Assembly (NCBI RefSeq): GCF_000423825.1
Contig: NZ_AUIS01000012.1
Span: 1-64,000, forward strand
Length of the DNA stretch: 64,000 nt
Direction of reading: 5' to 3'
DNA from: Thermithiobacillus tepidarius DSM 3134
Lineage (GTDB): Bacteria > Pseudomonadota > Gammaproteobacteria > Acidithiobacillales > Thermithiobacillaceae
This document shows, one piece after another, positions 8,810-47,101 of this stretch; positions within the stretch are counted from its first letter, which is position 1; each line of letters begins with the position of its first letter. The notes under the pieces are model-generated. The model saw only the letters and a program-made list of their open reading frames with translations. It was not told the DNA's origin and searched no databases. Both the position numbers and the translations under genes were made by a program.

Positions 8810-8884
8810 TGGTAGGCACGGGCGGTTTCGAACCGCCGACCTCTACCGTGTCAAGGTAGCGCTCTCCCCCTGAGCTACGCGCCT
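8810..8884 (-). tRNA. tRNA-Val (anticodon GAC)
   Basis: A 75-nt cloverleaf with encoded CCA. Acceptor AGGCGCG pairs with CGTGCCT (one wobble), the T arm is GGCGG/CCGCC with TTCGAAA, and the anticodon loop TTGACAC between CTACC and GGTAG gives GAC. Confidence 0.95.
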
Positions 8885-23918: not shown

Positions 23919-24003
23919 TGGTGCCGAAGGCCGGACTCGAACCGGCATGGCTTGCGCCGCCGCCCCCTCAAGACGGTGTGTCTACCAATTTCACCACTTC
24001 GGC
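23919..24003 (-). tRNA. tRNA-Leu (anticodon GAG)
   Basis: An 85-nt class II tRNA with long variable arm and encoded CCA. Acceptor GCCGAAG pairs with CTTCGGC, the T-loop is TTCGAGT, and the anticodon loop TTGAGGG between CCGTC and GGCGG reads GAG. Its position between secG and nuoA is conserved in many gammaproteobacteria. Confidence 0.95.
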
Positions 24004-37941: not shown

Positions 37942-38325
37942 TTAGGAGGCCGCCTGCATGGGAATGTCGTGCCCGATACGAATGACACGGTTCTGAGCGT
38001 CCACGTAGACCAGGCGCGGCTTGAACACCTCCGCCTCGGCACTGCTGAGGCCGCAATAGGCGGCGATGATGACGAGATCGCCCGGATTGGCCTTGTGAGC
38101 GGCGGCGCCGTTCACGGAGATGACGCCGGAGCCGGGCTCGGCGCGGATGGCATAGGTGGTGAAGCGCTCGCCGTTGTTCACGTTGTAGATGTGGATCTGC
38201 TCGTATTCACGGATGCCGGCCGCCGCCAGGAGATCCGCGTCGATGGCGCACGAACCCTCGTAATGCAGCTCGGCGTGCGTCACCGTGACCCGATGCAACT
38301 TGGCCTTCAGCATCTGAATGAACAT
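37942..38325 (-). CDS. panD: Aspartate 1-decarboxylase
   Basis: A 127-aa pyruvoyl enzyme that makes beta-alanine for pantothenate. The self-cleavage site is YEGSCAID with Gly24-Ser25, where Ser25 becomes the pyruvoyl group; conserved GERFTTYAI and [15 protein letters not shown] follow. ATG at 38325 is behind GAGGAGGG. It lies 92 nt after panC. Confidence 0.98.
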
Positions 38326-38417
38326 CCATTCCCTCCTCGATCAATCGGCGTGGCGGCCGCGAGACCCTCGTTCCCGCGCGGCGCCCTTTGCCGCAGCGCT
38401 GCCCGGCAAATTTTTCA

Positions 38418-39263
38418 TTATCCTAGATTTACCGGCACATTATCAATGAGCCGGGTGCCTCCCAGGCGCACGGCGGCGAACCAGCGCAACTCGCCGGCGA
38501 ACTGCTCCACCGGCCGCAGATCCGCGGCATTCAAGAGCTCCAGATACTCGGGCACCAGGCCTTCCAGCTCCAGGGTCTCCCAGGCGGCCCGGCGCAGCGC
38601 GGCCACATCCCGCTCGCCCGCAGCCACTCGCCGGGCCAGATCCTGCAGAGTGGTGTAGAGCAGGGGCGCCCGCCGCCGCTCCTCGGGGGCGAGATAGGCG
38701 TTGCGGGAACTCATGGCCAGTCCATCCGCTTCGCGCACCGTCGGCACAGCGACAACCTGCACCGGAAAGTTGAGATCGCGCGCCATCTGCCGCACCACCT
38801 GCAGCTGCTGGAAGTCCTTCTCCCCGAACACGGCGAGCTGCGGCTGGATGATGTTGAAGAGCTTGGCCACCACCGTGGTGACGCCGACGAAATGCCCCGG
38901 CCGGGCGGCGCCGCACAGATCCTTGCTCAGGGAAGCGGCGGGCATGACCAGGCTCAGGCCGGTGCGCCCATGCGGGTACAGCACCTCCTCGGCCGGCGCG
39001 AAGACGGCGTTCACGCCGGCTTCCTGCAGGCGTGCCAAATCTTCGTTCAGGGTGCGCGGATAGCTGGCGAAGTCCTCGCGCGGGCCGAATTGCAGGGGGT
39101 TGACGAAGATGCTGACGATGACCATGTCCGCGCGCTGCTGGGCGACCTGCACCAGGGCCATATGCCCGTCATGGAGGTTGCCCATGGTGGGTACCAGGGC
39201 AACGGAGCTGCCCGCCACCGTACGCCACGCCTTGACGTCGTTCGTATCCTTCAGGAAAACCAT
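38418..39263 (-). CDS. panC: Pantothenate synthetase
   Basis: A 281-aa ATP-dependent ligase joining pantoate and beta-alanine. The HIGH-like motif is PTMGNLHDGH and the KMSKS-like motif MSSRNAYL; the pantoate/ATP sites GEKDFQQLQVVRQM are also intact. It lies 12 nt after panB. Confidence 0.98.
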   Translation of the reverse strand: MVFLKDTNDVKAWRTVAGSSVALVPTMGNLHDGHMALVQVAQQRADMVIVSIFVNPLQFGPREDFASYPRTLNEDLARLQEAGVNAVFAPAEEVLYPHGRTGLSLVMPAASLSKDLCGAARPGHFVGVTTVVAKLFNIIQPQLAVFGEKDFQQLQVVRQMARDLNFPVQVVAVPTVREADGLAMSSRNAYLAPEERRRAPLLYTTLQDLARRVAAGERDVAALRRAAWETLELEGLVPEYLELLNAADLRPVEQFAGELRWFAAVRLGGTRLIDNVPVNLG

Positions 39264-39275
39264 TGCTCTACCGCT

Positions 39276-40094
39276 TCAGAGGGAGGGAAACTGCCGGCCA
39301 TGCACCTCGGCCACGTAGCGGGCCAAGGCATCGGCCATTATACCCGCGCCGTCCACATAAGTCTTGGCGAAAGCCGGGCTCCGGCCCAGGAAGAGGCCGA
39401 GGGCGTCATTCAGCACCAGCACCTGGGCATCGCAGTGGGGCCCGGCGCCGATGCCGATGGTGGGGATGGGGAGCGCAGCGGTGATCTGCGCGGCCAGCTC
39501 CGCCGGGATGGCCTCCAGCACCAGCAGCCGGGCGCCGGCATCGGCCAGCAGGCGCGCTTCCTCGCGCAGGCGGGCGGCGGCCACCGCATCACGTCCCTGC
39601 CGGCGATAGCCGCCCAGCTGATGCACCGCCTGCGGCGTCAGGCCGATGTGGCCGCAGACGGGAATGCCCCGCTGACTCAGGAAGGCAACGGTCTCGACCA
39701 TGGCCGCCCCGCCCTCCAGCTTCACCACCTCCGCCCCGGCCCGCAGCAGCGCGCCCGCGCTGCGCAAGGCCTGGGCCGGGCTTTCCTGGTAGCTCAGGAA
39801 GGGCAAGTCGCTGATCAGCAGAGCGCGGCGGCGTCCGCGCGCCGCCGCTTCCGTGTGGTACACCATCTGCTCCAGGGTCACGGACAGGGTATTTTCGTGC
39901 CCGGCGAAGACCATGCCCAGCGAATCACCCACGAGCAGGGCATCCACGCCCGCCTCATCGGCCAAGCGCGCGAAGGTGTAGTCGTAAGCGGTGAGCACGG
40001 CCAAAGGCTGATTGCCCTTGGCACGGTCCCAGTCGCGCAGGGTCAGGCGCCTGCGTGCGCCGGCGGCTGCTGCATCCACGGCCCCCTCCTCCAT
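39276..40094 (-). CDS. panB: 3-methyl-2-oxobutanoate hydroxymethyltransferase
   Basis: A 272-aa TIM-barrel enzyme making ketopantoate with methylene-tetrahydrofolate. Metal and substrate motifs: LTAYDYTFARLADEAG, LLVGDSLGMV and VKLEGGAAM, then GHIGLTPQA. ATG at 40094 abuts the stop of the upstream kinase gene (TAGATG), with GGGAGG just before. Confidence 0.97.
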   Translation of the reverse strand: MEEGAVDAAAAGARRRLTLRDWDRAKGNQPLAVLTAYDYTFARLADEAGVDALLVGDSLGMVFAGHENTLSVTLEQMVYHTEAAARGRRRALLISDLPFLSYQESPAQALRSAGALLRAGAEVVKLEGGAAMVETVAFLSQRGIPVCGHIGLTPQAVHQLGGYRRQGRDAVAAARLREEARLLADAGARLLVLEAIPAELAAQITAALPIPTIGIGAGPHCDAQVLVLNDALGLFLGRSPAFAKTYVDGAGIMADALARYVAEVHGRQFPSL

Positions 40095-40739
40095 CTAGCC
40101 TCCCGCCCTCGCATTCAGGTACAGCCGGCCGCGCACGTCCCGGAAGCGGGCGAGCAGCAAGGCCAAGTCGTCGGCGCTGTTGAGAAAATCCATGTGTTCC
40201 GCGTTGACGATCAGCAGCGGCGAGGCGTCGTACTGGTGGAAAAAATGATTGTAGGCGGCGACCAGCTCCTGCAGATAGTCGCTGCCGATATGCTGCTCGT
40301 AGGCGATGCCGCGGCGGCGGATGCGGTTGAGCAGCAACTCCACTGGCGCTTGCAGATAGATGACCAGGTCCGGAGTCGGTGCGCTGGTGCTCAGTGCGCG
40401 ATGCACTTGATCGTAAAGCGCCAGTTCGTCGGCGGACAGGGTCTGGGCGGCGAACAGGCGGTCCTTCTCCCACATGAAATCCGCCACCGTGCGCGGCTGA
40501 AACAGATCGCCCTGGCGCAGGCCTTCCAGCTGCCGCGCGCGCTGCAGCAGAAAAAAGAGCTGGGTCGAGAGGGCGTGGCGAGCCGGATCCTCGTAGAAGC
40601 CGGGCAGGAAGGGATTCTCTTCTGCCTGTTCCAGCAACAGGGAGGCGCCCAGCGCCTCTCCCAGACGGCGCGCCAGCGTGCTCTTGCCGGCGCCGATGGG
40701 CCCTTCCACCACGATGTAACGGGCGTCTGTCAAATCCAT
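40095..40739 (-). CDS. Deoxynucleoside kinase family protein
   Basis: A 214-aa P-loop kinase of the deoxyadenosine/deoxyguanosine kinase family. Walker A is VEGPIGAGKST at the N-terminus, the LID-type arginine stretch is RIRRRGIAYEQ, and ERDRLF-like MWEKDRLFAAQ lies in the middle. It would phosphorylate deoxynucleosides for salvage; the specific base cannot be read from sequence. The upstream open frame to 40865 has no start signal and MDLTDARYIVVEGP fits the family. It lies between folK and panB, an arrangement known from other proteobacteria. Confidence 0.88.
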   Translation of the reverse strand: MDLTDARYIVVEGPIGAGKSTLARRLGEALGASLLLEQAEENPFLPGFYEDPARHALSTQLFFLLQRARQLEGLRQGDLFQPRTVADFMWEKDRLFAAQTLSADELALYDQVHRALSTSAPTPDLVIYLQAPVELLLNRIRRRGIAYEQHIGSDYLQELVAAYNHFFHQYDASPLLIVNAEHMDFLNSADDLALLLARFRDVRGRLYLNARAGG

Positions 40740-40773
40740 AACACTGCTTCCTCGTACTGCCGGCGGACGCCCC

Positions 40774-41316
40774 TCAGGCGTCCACCAGCCGCTCCACCGC
40801 GCCCCGGTCCGGACACTGCGCCCAGGCCGCGGCCACGCTCTGCCCGGTGGGCAGCAGCCAATCACCCGCCACTTCCGCCAGCGGCGCCAGCACGAAGGCT
40901 CGCTCGCCGAGGCGCGGATGCGGGATCTCCAGATCGCCCGAGCGCAGCGCCAGATCGCCGAAGAGCAACAGATCCAGATCCAGCGTGCGCGGCCCCCAGC
41001 GGGTCTCCCGGGCGCGGCAGCGCCCGGCGCGCGCCTCGATCTCCAGCAAGGCGGCGAAGAGCGCCTCGGGCGACAGCCCGGTGACGATGCCGGCCACGGC
41101 GTTGATGAAATCCGGCTGCGCCACGCCGCCCACCGGCCGGGTGCGGTACAGGTGCGAGCACTTGTGCAGGCGCGTATCCGGCAGCCGCGCCAGGGCCTCT
41201 CGCGCCCTTCTGACCTGCTGCACCGGGTCCGCCAGGTTGCTGCCCAAGCCGATCCACGCCGTGACCGGCCCCGCTACGGACTTTGTGTTTCCTGCTGCAA
41301 GCCCTGTCTGATCCAC
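40774..41316 (-). CDS. folK: 6-hydroxymethyl-7,8-dihydropterin pyrophosphokinase
   Basis: About 180 aa. HPPK adds diphosphate to hydroxymethyl-dihydropterin, just before FolP in folate synthesis. The core is AWIGLGSNLADP, the signature TRWGPRTLDLDLLLFGD and HPRLGERAFVLAPLAEV. No ATG, GTG or TTG lies directly before the core; the best start is GTG at 41316 with GGGAG 11 nt upstream, giving about 18 extra N-terminal residues. It would overlap the preceding gene by 43 nt. Start uncertain, function sure. Confidence 0.9.
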   Translation of the reverse strand: MDQTGLAAGNTKSVAGPVTAWIGLGSNLADPVQQVRRAREALARLPDTRLHKCSHLYRTRPVGGVAQPDFINAVAGIVTGLSPEALFAALLEIEARAGRCRARETRWGPRTLDLDLLLFGDLALRSGDLEIPHPRLGERAFVLAPLAEVAGDWLLPTGQSVAAAWAQCPDRGAVERLVDA

Positions 41317-43940
41317 CGCTGCGCCGTCTCCCTGTCCTGCACCCGCCCTTCCACCACGGCCCGGCGCAGCCACTGCAGCCATTCGCCGATGCGCGGTCCC
41401 TGCGGCACGCCCAGGGCGAGGAGGTCCGCGCCGTCCAGGGGCAAGGCCAAATCATACTGATGCTGGATGTAGTCCGAAACCTGCTCGCGCAACAGCTCAT
41501 TGTCGCTCCAGGCCATCAGAGCCAGCAGTCCCTCCAGACTCACGGGAGCGAGCGCCTGGTAGCGCGGCCACGGCTCCAGGCGCTCCCGCAGGCGCTGCGC
41601 CAGCGGACGCAGCTGCCGCAGGTCCGCCAGCAGCACAGAGGCATCGCGCGCCGCCAGCTGGAACTCGTGCAGGCGCCGGCGCAGGGCGGGCTCCGCCAGA
41701 TCGCCCAGCAACACCCGCAGCAGCACCGCCCAGGGCCGCACCGCTTCGGGTCGGAATAGTAAATGGTACCACTGCAGCATTTCCAGCGCGCGTTTGCCGC
41801 GCGCCAGCAGCAGGGTGGGATCCTTGGCCGGCTCCCCGCGCAGCACCGTCCACAGGTGCAGGCGCCCGAGCCGCTCCCAGGCGGCCGCGGCCTGGGGCAG
41901 ATCGAAGAGATAACGCAGCTCCCGCCACAGGCGCGCGCCGGACAACTGCTCGAAGACACCCAGATGCAGGGCGTTCAGGGCGAGGCGCTGGCTCTGCTCG
42001 TCCATGCAAAAACCCAAGCGCGCCTCGAAGCGCACCGCCCGCAGGATGCGCGTGGGATCCTCCACGAAGGACAGGCTGTGCAGGATGCGGATGCGCCGCT
42101 CGCGCAGGTCGGTCAGACCATGATAGGGATCCAGCAGATCGCCGAAGCGGGCCGGATGAATGTCCATGGCCATGGCATTGATGGTGAAATCCCGCCGCCA
42201 CAGATCCGCATGAATGCCGCCCAGCTCGATCATCGGCAGGGCCGCCGGGGCGGCATAGTGCTCCACGCGGCTGCTGGCCAGGTCCAGGCGCTCGCCGTCG
42301 GGAAAGATCAGGGTCGCGGTGCCGAAGGCGGCATGGGTGACCACCCGCACGCCGGGCGTGCGCTCCTGCAGGCGGCGGGCCAGCGCCGGCGCCGCGCCCT
42401 CCACCACCACGTCGAGATCCTGGGTGCTCTGGTTGAGCAGGAGGTCCCGCACGCTGCCTCCCACCAGATAAGCGCGCAGATCGATCTCCGCCGCCGCCTG
42501 CCCCAACTCGCGCAGGCGCCGGGTGCGGCGCTCGCCCCATTGGCCCCGCAGGCGCCGGGCCAGGTTGCGCGGGCCTAAGGGGTGGGACGGCGGCAGGGCG
42601 TGGGTGAGCTCCAGATGGCGCAGGTCCGCCGGTGTGATGACGCCGCTCAGCCGGCCGGCCGTGTCGACCACGCCCAGCATGGGCGTCGGGGAGTGGCGCA
42701 GGACCTCGCGCACGGCGGCCAGGCGGCTGTCCTGGGCGATGATCGGCAGCGGTTCGGCATAGTCCGCCAGGGGCCGGTCGCCGAGCCCGTGCCGCTGCGC
42801 GTTTTCCAGCAGGCGCCGGTGCACGTAGCCGGCGGGGCGACCCTGCTCGTCCAGCACCGGCATGCCGCGGTGGGGGTAGCGGCCCAGCAGGGCCAGTCCC
42901 GCCGCCACCGTGCAGCCGGCGGCCGCCGAGTGCACCGGGCGCGCCATGATGTCCTCGGCCCGCGGCGGCGCGGACAGGCGCTGGTGGATGGCCGCCAGCA
43001 CCTGCTCCTCAGCCTCCGCCAGGGTCACGTTGCGCAGCGTCGCCGCCGCCGCCATCGGATGGCCGCCACCGCCCAGCGTCTGGGCGATTTCGTGCACCGG
43101 TACCGCGCCGTCGCCGGCGGCGCGCGCGATCACGGAGATGCGCGGTCCTTGGGCCAGCAACGCGAAGATGGCCTCGGGGCGCTCCATGTCCAGCATGCGG
43201 CTGACCACCACCGCCGCCTCGTCGATGTACTGATCCACCACGGCGGCCGTCAGCAGGATGCGCTTGCCGCCGACCTCCAGCGCCTGCTGGTTCGCCAGCA
43301 GCCGGTCCAGCAGCTGCACCTGCTCCGCGCTCAGCTCCTGGCGCAGGAAGCGGCCTACGTACACCAGATCCGCTCCCCGCTCCAGCAGCCAGGCCAACGC
43401 TTGCAGATCACGCGGGCTCACGCCCGCATAGGTCAACCCGCCGGTATCCTCGAAAATGCCCAGAGCCAGCAGGGTGGCCTCCTCGGGACTGGGCTCCAGC
43501 TCCTGCGCGCGCAGGCACTCCACCAGCAGGGTCGAGTTGGCGCCGGTGGCGCCGCTCACGTGCTCGCCGCGCTCGACGTCGCCCGGCTGGGCGGGATGAT
43601 GATCATAGCTCAGCACCCGCACCCGCTCATCCGCCGCCAGGCCGCGCAGGGGACCGATGCGCTCGGCCTGGCGGCAGTCCACCAGCACCAGGCACGTCAC
43701 CTGATCCAGCTCGACGGCGTCAAGGGCATGGATGCGCTCGGCCAAGTGCGGACGCTCGGCCAGCAGGCGGCGCAGTTCTGCGCCGGCGCCGCCGGGCAGT
43801 ACCGGCAGGCAGTGGGGGTGCAGCAGGCTGGCGGCCAGCAGAGAGGCAAAGCCATCCAGGTCGGCCTGCTGGTGGGTGGCGATCAGGCAGCGCGGCCCGC
43901 CGTGCGGCTCGTCCTCGCCGCAGCCGGGCACGGGCGGCAT
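41274..43940 (-). CDS. DHH-CBS-CBS-tRNA nucleotidyltransferase/poly(A) polymerase fusion
   Basis: An 888-aa three-part protein. Residues about 15-325 are a DHH/DHHA1 phosphoesterase with intact metal motifs: H23, D27 and D29 in HQQADLDG, D88, D113-H114-H115, D165 in FEDTGG and GGGGH at 290-294. Two CBS domains follow (about 330-385 and 395-447). From about 485 there is a class II nucleotidyltransferase with YLVGGSVRDLL and catalytic DLD (508-510), RRDFTINAMAMD and EDPTRILRAVRFEARLGF. Such fusions are known in Aquifex and deltaproteobacteria, where they belong to the tRNA CCA-end enzymes; whether this one adds CCA or only A cannot be told from sequence. ATG at 43940 has GAGG 5 nt upstream; it follows pcnB by 14 nt. 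Confidence 0.9.
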   Translation of the reverse strand: MPPVPGCGEDEPHGGPRCLIATHQQADLDGFASLLAASLLHPHCLPVLPGGAGAELRRLLAERPHLAERIHALDAVELDQVTCLVLVDCRQAERIGPLRGLAADERVRVLSYDHHPAQPGDVERGEHVSGATGANSTLLVECLRAQELEPSPEEATLLALGIFEDTGGLTYAGVSPRDLQALAWLLERGADLVYVGRFLRQELSAEQVQLLDRLLANQQALEVGGKRILLTAAVVDQYIDEAAVVVSRMLDMERPEAIFALLAQGPRISVIARAAGDGAVPVHEIAQTLGGGGHPMAAAATLRNVTLAEAEEQVLAAIHQRLSAPPRAEDIMARPVHSAAAGCTVAAGLALLGRYPHRGMPVLDEQGRPAGYVHRRLLENAQRHGLGDRPLADYAEPLPIIAQDSRLAAVREVLRHSPTPMLGVVDTAGRLSGVITPADLRHLELTHALPPSHPLGPRNLARRLRGQWGERRTRRLRELGQAAAEIDLRAYLVGGSVRDLLLNQSTQDLDVVVEGAAPALARRLQERTPGVRVVTHAAFGTATLIFPDGERLDLASSRVEHYAAPAALPMIELGGIHADLWRRDFTINAMAMDIHPARFGDLLDPYHGLTDLRERRIRILHSLSFVEDPTRILRAVRFEARLGFCMDEQSQRLALNALHLGVFEQLSGARLWRELRYLFDLPQAAAAWERLGRLHLWTVLRGEPAKDPTLLLARGKRALEMLQWYHLLFRPEAVRPWAVLLRVLLGDLAEPALRRRLHEFQLAARDASVLLADLRQLRPLAQRLRERLEPWPRYQALAPVSLEGLLALMAWSDNELLREQVSDYIQHQYDLALPLDGADLLALGVPQGPRIGEWLQWLRRAVVEGRVQDRETAQRWIRQGLQQETQSP

Positions 43941-43954
43941 GCTGCCCTCGACAG

Positions 43955-45406
43955 TCACGAAGCACTCGACTCCGGCGCCGGACGCGGGCGCCGCCGGCGA
44001 CGGCGCTTGGGCTTGAGCGGACCGGCCGGCCCCTCCTCGGCGCCCGCGCTGTGCTTGGCAGTGCGCACCAGTTCGCCGCGACCGGCGTCGTCGGCCTCCT
44101 GGAAGGCGGTCCACCACTGGGCCAGGGCCTCGTCCGCCTCGCCGCTGGCCGCGCGCAGCAGCAGAAAATCATACGCGGCGCGAAAGCGCGGATGAGCCAG
44201 CAGCGCAAACGGGCGGCGTCCGCCGCGGCGGCTGAAGCGCGGCTGCAGCTCCCAGATCTCGCGCATCGGCACGGAAAAGCGCTTGGGGATCGCCACGCGC
44301 CCGATCTGCTCCTGCACCACCTCGGTGGCCGCCTGCTGCAACGCCAAGCCGTCCTGCAGGCCGGCTGCCTGCAGCTCGGCCGCACGCAGGCGCACGGGCT
44401 CCCACAGCAGGGCGGCGAAGAGGAAGGCCGGGGTGACCGCCTTGCCCATCTGCACCCGCTCGTCCGTGTTGGCCAGGGCCTGCATCAGCAGCACCAGCGG
44501 AAAGTGCTGCACCTCCTGCGCCAAGGCCGCCTCGGTGGCGGGAAAGAGATGCTGGAACAGGTCGTAGTGGCGCAGGAGTTCGTAGCTCTCGACCGCGTGG
44601 CCGCTGAGGAAGAGCTTCAAGGTTTCATCGAAGAGGCGGGCCGGCGGCACGTCGCGCAGCAGATGGCCAAGCTCTCTGAGCGGCGCCTCGGTTTCCGGAC
44701 TCATGCGAAAACCGAGCTTGGCGGCAAAGCGCACCGCGCGCAGCATGCGCACCGGGTCCTCGCGGTAGCGGCTGGCCGGATCGCCGATGACGCGCAGGCG
44801 GCCGGCGCGCAGGTCTTCCAGGCCGCCCACGTAGTCCACGAGCGAGAAGTCGGCGATGTTGTAGTACAGGGCGTTGACCGAGAAGTCCCGCCGAAAGGCG
44901 TCTTCCTCCATGTTGCCGTAGACGTTGTCCGCCAGCAACCGCCCGCTCTCGTCCTGGACCATGAGCTCGCGCTGATCCTCGCCCTCCTCGGGCGTTTCGT
45001 CGTCCAGTGCCGGAGAAGCGCCACTGCCCCGGAAAGTGGCCACCTCGATGATCTCGCCCTGGAAGTGCACGTGCACCAGGATGAAGCGGCGCCCGATCAG
45101 GCGAGAGTTGCGAAAGATCCGCCGCACCTCCTCCGGTCGCGCGTCGGTGGTGACGTCGAAGTCCTTCGGCTCGCGGCCCAGGAGCAGATCGCGGATGCCG
45201 CCGCCCACCAGATAAGCCTGATAACCGGCGTCCTTGAGCCCGTACAGCACGCGCAGGGCCGCCTGGCTGATCTGCTTGCGGGAGATGCCGTGCTCGGCCC
45301 GCGGGATGATCGGCGGAGCCGCTTCGTCCCGGGGCGCCGGAGCGCCTTGTGGCGACGCCGCTTTCTGCTCCCCGCTCTCACCTATGAACTCTTTCAAAGA
45401 AACCAA
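43955..45406 (-). CDS. pcnB: Poly(A) polymerase I
   Basis: About 483 aa. PcnB adds poly(A) tails that speed RNA decay. The nucleotidyltransferase core is YLVGGGIRDLLLGREPKDFD with the catalytic DFD, then FRNSRLIGRRFILVHV, the RRDFSVNALYYN block and REDPVRMLRAVRFAAKLGF. The LPK-type feature and the arginine-rich tail KPKRRRRRRPRP at the C-terminus are typical of PcnB and distinguish it from CCA-adding enzymes. No ATG is near; TTG at 45406 with AGGA 8 nt upstream is preferred over TTG at 45463. Confidence 0.92.
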   Translation of the reverse strand: MVSLKEFIGESGEQKAASPQGAPAPRDEAAPPIIPRAEHGISRKQISQAALRVLYGLKDAGYQAYLVGGGIRDLLLGREPKDFDVTTDARPEEVRRIFRNSRLIGRRFILVHVHFQGEIIEVATFRGSGASPALDDETPEEGEDQRELMVQDESGRLLADNVYGNMEEDAFRRDFSVNALYYNIADFSLVDYVGGLEDLRAGRLRVIGDPASRYREDPVRMLRAVRFAAKLGFRMSPETEAPLRELGHLLRDVPPARLFDETLKLFLSGHAVESYELLRHYDLFQHLFPATEAALAQEVQHFPLVLLMQALANTDERVQMGKAVTPAFLFAALLWEPVRLRAAELQAAGLQDGLALQQAATEVVQEQIGRVAIPKRFSVPMREIWELQPRFSRRGGRRPFALLAHPRFRAAYDFLLLRAASGEADEALAQWWTAFQEADDAGRGELVRTAKHSAGAEEGPAGPLKPKRRRRRRPRPAPESSAS

Positions 45407-45549
45407 GACTTTTATCCTGTCTGTGCAAACCCGTGCCGATGCGAACGCTGGCGAGCGCTCCAAGGATTAAAAGTTTACACCAAATCCACCTTTTTTGCGG
45501 AAACGGACCATCGGCGCACTCGGAAGGCGCCGGAGCGACTCCGGGCCCC

Positions 45550-45589: not shown

Positions 45590-45665
45590 GCTCCCATCGT
45601 CTAGTGGTCCAGGACACCGGCCTCTCACGTCGGTAACAGGGGTTCGAACCCCCTTGGGAGCGCCA
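45590..45665 (+). tRNA. tRNA-Glu (anticodon CTC)
   Basis: A 76-nt cloverleaf with encoded CCA. Acceptor GCTCCCA pairs with TGGGAGC, T arm GGGGTTCGAACCCCC, anticodon loop CTCTCAC between CCGGC and GTCGG reads CTC. No clear terminator follows; the next 150 nt hold no other gene I can see. Confidence 0.95.

Positions 45666-47025: not shown

Positions 47026-47101
<76 letters not shown>

Follow-up and report, generated by a model that had tools for sequence, protein, structure and literature searches.

Architecture of the gene at 41274..43940

The 64,000-nucleotide stretch of Thermithiobacillus tepidarius DSM 3134 analysed here (contig NZ_AUIS01000012.1; hereafter the window) carries on its reverse strand, at 41274..43940, a gene that by its translation, its Pfam and NCBIfam matches and its predicted folds encodes a long-form tRNA nucleotidyltransferase of 888 amino acids (aa), with the domain order DHH-DHHA1-CBS-CBS-nucleotidyltransferase (NTase), probably an A76-adding enzyme. 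We refer to this protein as the fusion and consider it likely to be the A76-adding half of a split pair of CC- and A-adding enzymes, bearing a DHH-CBS front with a probable phosphoesterase. Both the long-form architecture and split CC/A addition are already known, and the fusion belongs to this known family, in which a preliminary description of the gene did not place it.

From an ATG at 43940 the frame runs uninterrupted for 888 aa; the longer open frame has 947 aa. A GAGG just 5' of the ATG may be its ribosome-binding site, by our reading. The DHH domain (43455..43886, aa 19-162; PF01368) holds H23, D27, D29, D88 and the triplet D113-H114-H115, with D165 just after the domain, and is followed by a DHHA1 domain with a GGGGH motif (42972..43220, aa 241-323; PF02272). 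The preliminary description had counted two CBS domains, and we agree: Pfam finds one CBS stretch (42813..42956, aa 329-376; PF00571), while the second (42606..42773, roughly aa 390-445, its boundaries being estimates) emerges from the predicted order of strands and helices together with the conserved T436 and D439. The NTase head (42087..42473, aa 490-618; PolyA_pol, PF01743) carries D508/D510, the basic/acidic (B/A) motif R558-x-E560 and, by loop length, a full 24-residue flexible loop; the EDPTR nucleotide-template motif (aa 627-631) comes next, with neck, body and tail assigned from the predicted fold (41277..42086).

The DHH, DHHA1, CBS and PolyA_pol parts each exceed the Pfam gathering score, and tRNA_NucTran2_2 lies slightly under its threshold (25.9 vs 27 bits). 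The four domains occur on the same chain and in the same order in all 42 long forms that were scanned with Pfam, a subset of the 85 that were aligned. With DxD, EDxxR, R-x-E and the flexible loop present and the poly(A) polymerase (PAP) signature absent, the fusion has the features of a class II tRNA nucleotidyltransferase.

As had been pointed out before, the fusion lies next to pcnB (43955..45463, reverse strand). The two genes are co-directional, pcnB lying upstream with its TGA stop at 43955-43957, which leaves a gap of 14 nucleotides (nt). PcnB is a poly(A) polymerase I that scores 540 bits on TIGR01942 (cut-off 306). The PAP signature LIGRRFILVHV is found in PcnB and not in the fusion, which rules out the fusion as a second poly(A) polymerase.

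Family placement, partner enzyme and ancestry

The NCBIfam profile for A-adding tRNA nucleotidyltransferases, NF041569, spans aa 78-940 of the 947-aa frame (profile positions 3-877) with 537 bits and an E value of 7.6e-161, an end-to-end match that cannot be put down to chance. The earlier proposal of an RNA 3'-end nucleotidyltransferase is supported. The full-length long forms of the class (G000:C10:41298-43886, G030, G150 and G264) score 526-581 bits on this profile and are excluded by its cut-off of 1440. Relatives from named genomes, taken as the best 80 of at least 543 confirmed ones, match over almost the full length of the fusion; residue counts therefore lean to closer relatives, and one Acidithiobacillus sulfuriphilus gene (L044 and L103) is counted twice among the aligned rows.

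Among solved relatives, the Thermotoga CCA-adding enzyme ranks first by sequence (187 bits), before 4wby and 1vfg (180 and 175 bits), which, like 4wc2, we take to be the Aquifex A-adding enzyme. An AlphaFold2 model of the fusion reached a mean pLDDT of 90.2 and a pTM of 0.62; at this pTM we do not rely on how the DHH and NTase units lie relative to each other, and none of our claims draws on it. The C-terminal fold of the model is closest to 3h38, the T. maritima CCA enzyme (Z 29.8, 421 residues aligned, 3.5 Å), followed by 4wby and 4wc2 (Z 28.9 and 27.2), and the N-terminal fold resembles the catalytic domain of GdpP (5xsp; Z 26.9, 304 aligned, 4.7 Å).

Besides pcnB and the fusion, the genome of the window contains one more PF01743 gene, the third in all, on contig C1 (L005:5208-6743). 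It encodes a Cca paralogue that NCBIfam matches best to the multifunctional CCA protein PRK10885 (150.8 bits, cut-off 451). Between the position of the R-x-E arginine and the RRD motif, the C1 Cca has 16 residues where the fusion has 24, and it reads LPQ where the full-loop enzymes of genomes G018 and G019 have AR-x-E. The same division runs through the other rows. The loop is 24 residues long in 51/51 fusions or bare cores (the latter being NTases without the DHH-CBS front; the fusions are 5 plus 21 of the 22 chosen from the 80 named loci), 15-17 in 24/24 short-loop Cca proteins and 25 in both Cca rows from genomes without fusion or core. The loop of L180 is masked and was counted from its X's; rows L133 and G004_cca were dropped as short, the visible loop of the G004 Cca being short as well. 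Passages of PMC7014341 describe deletion of the flexible loop as a hallmark of bacterial CC-adding enzymes and implicate the upstream B/A motif in A addition. The C1 protein shows this deletion (16 vs 24-25 residues), and we therefore read it as CC-adding and the fusion as A-adding. A separate CCA-adding gene had been named earlier as something to look for: a Cca-like gene does exist, but having lost both the flexible loop and the R-x-E motif it is probably CC-only, with the fusion supplying the A.

We followed these genes through 31 genomes of the Acidithiobacillales, that of the window (G000) included. A fusion or bare core is present in 28 of them. The fusion is carried by G000, G030, G021 and G020 (the last copy split over two contigs), and a bare core adjoining pcnB by 17 genomes of genus g3 and seven of g6. 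Pfam scans of four of these 24 bare cores found the NTase head and neither DHH nor CBS; for the others, the absence of CBS was judged from frame length only and that of DHH from a separate search. A short-loop Cca occurs in 23 genomes of the order, every one of which also has a fusion or stripped core (23/23), and the full-loop Cca (25 residues) in G018 and G019, neither of which has one (0/2). In the latter two, pcnB has a gene for IMP dehydrogenase as its neighbour, identified by Pfam in G018. A core-only lineage of the A-adding type may be the sole tRNA nucleotidyltransferase in G022, G023, G026, G027 and G029, and none was seen in G028, a genome that is 69% complete. Across the 274 genomes sampled from the class, the full-length fusion is found in four (G000, G030, G150 and G264); the two of these that do not belong to the order, G150 and G264, likewise possess a short-loop partner (53% and 51% identity).

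The fusion adjoins pcnB in G030, G021, G150 and G264 too. Whether the link to pcnB is conserved outside the order was checked by tblastn, which detected a relative of PcnB in 30/31 control loci but near the long form in just one of the 80 named loci (L103, A. sulfuriphilus); the other 79 show none within the stretch at hand, which is shorter than 10 kb in 38 of the 80.

The ancestry of these proteins was examined in a tree of 81 sequences, built by a quick method with SH-aLRT support only, in which 22 of the 80 named long forms were included, four PcnB rows served as outgroup and two short rows were dropped. All fusions and cores from the Acidithiobacillales group in a single clade (95). Within it the window and G030 fusions are outermost, the G020 and G021 fusions come next, and the 24 bare cores make up one nested group (100). 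This is explained most simply by a single loss of DHH-CBS in the Acidithiobacillus relatives, which kept the NTase. The short-loop Cca appears in two places, 22 rows grouping together (99) and those of G024 and G025 falling with the full-loop enzymes of G018 and G019 (99); the loop in G024/G025 (L074, L075) is 8 residues shorter than in G018/G019 (L072, L073). Probably the loop was lost twice independently, one loss and one regain being less likely, although a long-branch warning from the tree program that includes the G018/G019 pair makes the two-loss reading less sure.

Downstream of the fusion and co-directional with it follow a folK open frame (40774..41382, its true start judged by eye to be probably near 41265), a deoxynucleoside kinase open frame of uncertain start codon (40095..40865; PF01712) and the block 37942..40094 with panB (39276-40094; PF02548), panC (38418-39263; PF02569) and panD (37942-38325; PF02261), all on the reverse strand. 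The kinase is thus flanked by folK and panB; in L067, the bare core likewise has a similar kinase downstream (L067:4037-4816).

The DHH-CBS front

The metal residues of the DHH part had been described as kept, and the alignment supports this strongly: H23, D27, D29, D88, D113, H114 and H115 are invariant in 85/85 long forms and D165 is present in 84/85. The histidine of GGGGH is found in 83/85 rows; both exceptions are the doubly counted A. sulfuriphilus gene. The fusion thus has the complete set of a DHH-DHHA1 phosphoesterase, namely HxxxDxD, D, DHH and D, plus GGGH in DHHA1. In the second CBS domain, T/S436 and D439, residues which presumably have a meaning for the ligand, are each kept in 83/85, and a comparable motif was not seen by eye in the first.

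Between G020 and G021, the part from DHH to CBS has a dN of 0.039 and a dS of 0.235 (dN/dS 0.16 over 406 codons) and the NTase part a dN/dS of 0.33 (396 codons), both being counts from a single pair by a simple method, with the two G020 contig pieces compared separately. We looked for signs that the DHH part is decaying in the lineage of A. sulfuriphilus, which reads GGGGQ, and dN/dS showed none. On these counts the DHH unit seems constrained where it is present; from its invariant catalytic residues it is probably an active phosphoesterase.

Regarding its substrate, passages of PMC12709177, PMC5593865 and PMC9757072 report that DHH-DHHA1 nanoRNases act on RNA of 2-5 nt. The genome of the window encodes the oligoribonuclease Orn (NF003765, 280 bits, cut-off 106), which is found in 30/31 genomes of the order, and an NrnA-like DHH-DHHA1 protein (NF053633, 82 bits, cut-off 350), ruling out a role of the fusion as the only nanoRNase. 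The gene of the NrnA-like protein (L098:8096-9989) is a neighbour of truB, and that of Orn, an oligoribonuclease of the canonical type, is at L099:1209-1751. Pfam found in the fusion neither the PAS/GGDEF domains of the GdpP type nor the DHHA2 lobe of family II pyrophosphatases, DHHA1 being there instead, and no diadenylate cyclase (PF02457) was found in the genome of the window by a search that was positive in 11 of 14 control genomes. Because no c-di-AMP synthase was found, nanoRNA or pAp appear the likeliest substrates, in a range that would extend to linear dinucleotides; the cleavage would take place close to the tRNA-end enzyme and may be controlled by the CBS pair.

Proposed function and comparison with known systems

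We propose that the C1 Cca would add or restore C74 and C75 and then stop, because it has lost the loop by which the pocket changes over from CTP to ATP. The fusion would recognise the resulting tRNA-CC and add the final A by means of its EDxxR pocket, loop and R-x-E motif, and PcnB would act separately as a poly(A) polymerase. Since all five tRNA genes of the window encode their 3' CCA (1380-1456, 8810-8884, 23919-24003, 45590-45665 and 47026-47101), the main task of the CC/A pair is probably to repair tRNA ends. The DHH-DHHA1 unit would most likely be an active Mn2+-type phosphoesterase of the NrnA/GdpP kind, with pAp, dinucleotides like pApA or RNAs of a few nucleotides as substrates. An adenine nucleotide is the probable ligand of the CBS pair, which would probably tune one or the other catalytic unit. 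Computation shows the architecture, the kept residues, the shortened loop of the C1 Cca, the pattern of co-occurrence and the ancestry; what the NTase adds, what the DHH unit cleaves, what the CBS pair binds and whether the units are coupled is inferred.

Nonetheless, several observations weigh against this proposal. The score of the fusion on NF041569 (537 bits) is far below the curated cut-off of 1440, which is reached in 0/274 genomes of the class. Moreover, sequence similarity cannot tell A-adding from full CCA-adding enzymes, and the Thermotoga CCA-adding enzyme ranks first. Two further protein searches found no CC-type gene in G022, G023, G026, G027 and G029 (g6; L067-L071), which have the stripped core and PcnB; the NTase of this lineage may suffice for all of CCA. 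As for the front, A. sulfuriphilus has GGGGQ for GGGGH, as does G020, and between G020 and G021 a stretch of 99 codons in the CBS/linker region has a dN of 0.071 and a dS of 0.070 (ratio 1.0), with no silent excess. The DHH part is missing altogether from the bare cores of the Acidithiobacillus relatives, and with Orn and the NrnA-like protein present a nanoRNase role would be redundant.

Like its Thermotoga counterpart, the fusion might add the whole CCA, leaving the C1 Cca redundant or specialised. The T. maritima enzyme is indeed the best PDB match, and the five relatives just mentioned seem to have the stripped core as their only tRNA nucleotidyltransferase. A short-loop Cca would, however, have little use beside such an enzyme, and the finding that it always accompanies a fusion or core, which the full-loop Cca never does, is the pattern of a division of labour; we regard a full CCA-adding activity as unlikely. 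Some family II pyrophosphatases carry CBS domains, and their DHH lobe matches that of the fusion (aa 16-201, Z about 21), so that the DHH part could be imagined to remove PPi and drive A addition. Yet the second lobe is DHHA1 with GGGGH rather than DHHA2, and the top matches over both lobes are phosphoesterases of nucleotides or oligonucleotides, which leaves a pyrophosphatase hardly credible.

If the DHH part were a phosphodiesterase of c-di-AMP or pApA, it could link a second messenger with the maturation of tRNA. Such a role would suit the nearest DHH folds, GdpP with pApA and, lower, TM1595; it fits poorly with the failure to find PF02457 in the genome of the window against its detection in most control genomes, and we hold it to be very unlikely. 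The preliminary description had also suggested that one protein might both remove and add terminal nucleotides, the DHH part trimming tRNA ends to which the NTase re-adds the A. Intact DHH residues and the constant company of the four domains in the scanned long forms would agree with this. The DHH part is nevertheless not needed for tailing, because the bare cores of the Acidithiobacillus relatives keep the NTase without it; NrnA-type DHH-DHHA1 enzymes are described with RNA of 2-5 nt as substrate, and passages of PMC8208693 describe the accessory domains of the Thermotoga enzyme as dispensable for CCA addition. We find the suggestion unsupported and give it next to no credence.

Returning to the A76-adding enzyme with its phosphoesterase front, a bolder version is that A76 addition is gated by the CBS pair according to the level of adenylate or pAp, with the DHH unit clearing away an inhibitory small nucleotide, and that the products of RNA decay are thereby coupled to tRNA-end repair in one protein; Acidithiobacillus would have dropped this control module and run the bare enzyme. 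We offer it as speculation that is quite doubtful. The order does present a natural experiment with four states: fusion plus CC-type gene (the genome of the window), bare core plus CC-type gene (17 genomes of g3, G024 and G025), bare core alone (five) and full-loop Cca alone (two). Comparing them could show the function of the accessory module and how specificity moves between partners. The most useful outcome of this work is a set of natural variants within one order for testing the purpose of the DHH-CBS front, on whose role the passages of the cited papers make no statement. Literature searches on A- or CC-adding enzymes with CBS/DHH, and on CC- or A-adding in Gammaproteobacteria, returned no match, a weak result given that most subscription papers lay outside their coverage; one on Acidithiobacillus and tRNA nucleotidyltransferase returned nothing related, to judge from titles and abstract openings.

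Among known systems, the NF041569 A-adding enzymes share the domain order of the fusion end to end and differ from it in score (537 vs 1440 bits). Like the fusion, the native CCA-adding enzyme of Thermotoga maritima (3h37/3h38/5hc9) has Nrn and CBS before the NTase, according to passages of PMC8208693; it is described in PMC3925840, again in part of the text, as a single enzyme for the whole CCA, whereas the genome of the window has a short-loop partner as well. The A-adding enzyme of Aquifex is partnered by a separate CC-adding enzyme (PMC3925840, same passages), and its NTase fold matches that of the fusion with Z 26.7-28.9. Its solved chains comprise the NTase part only, unlike the full-length fusion. 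The Cca-type partner in the genome of the window has just 39 bits against 3wfo, which we take to be the Aquifex CC-adding enzyme. DHH-DHHA1 domains are known within tRNA nucleotidyltransferases, as stated in passages of PMC12709177. The DHH-DHHA1 phosphoesterases GdpP, TM1595 and NrnA share fold (Z 20-27) and metal residues with the fusion, which, unlike them, joins DHH-DHHA1 to a CBS pair and an NTase.

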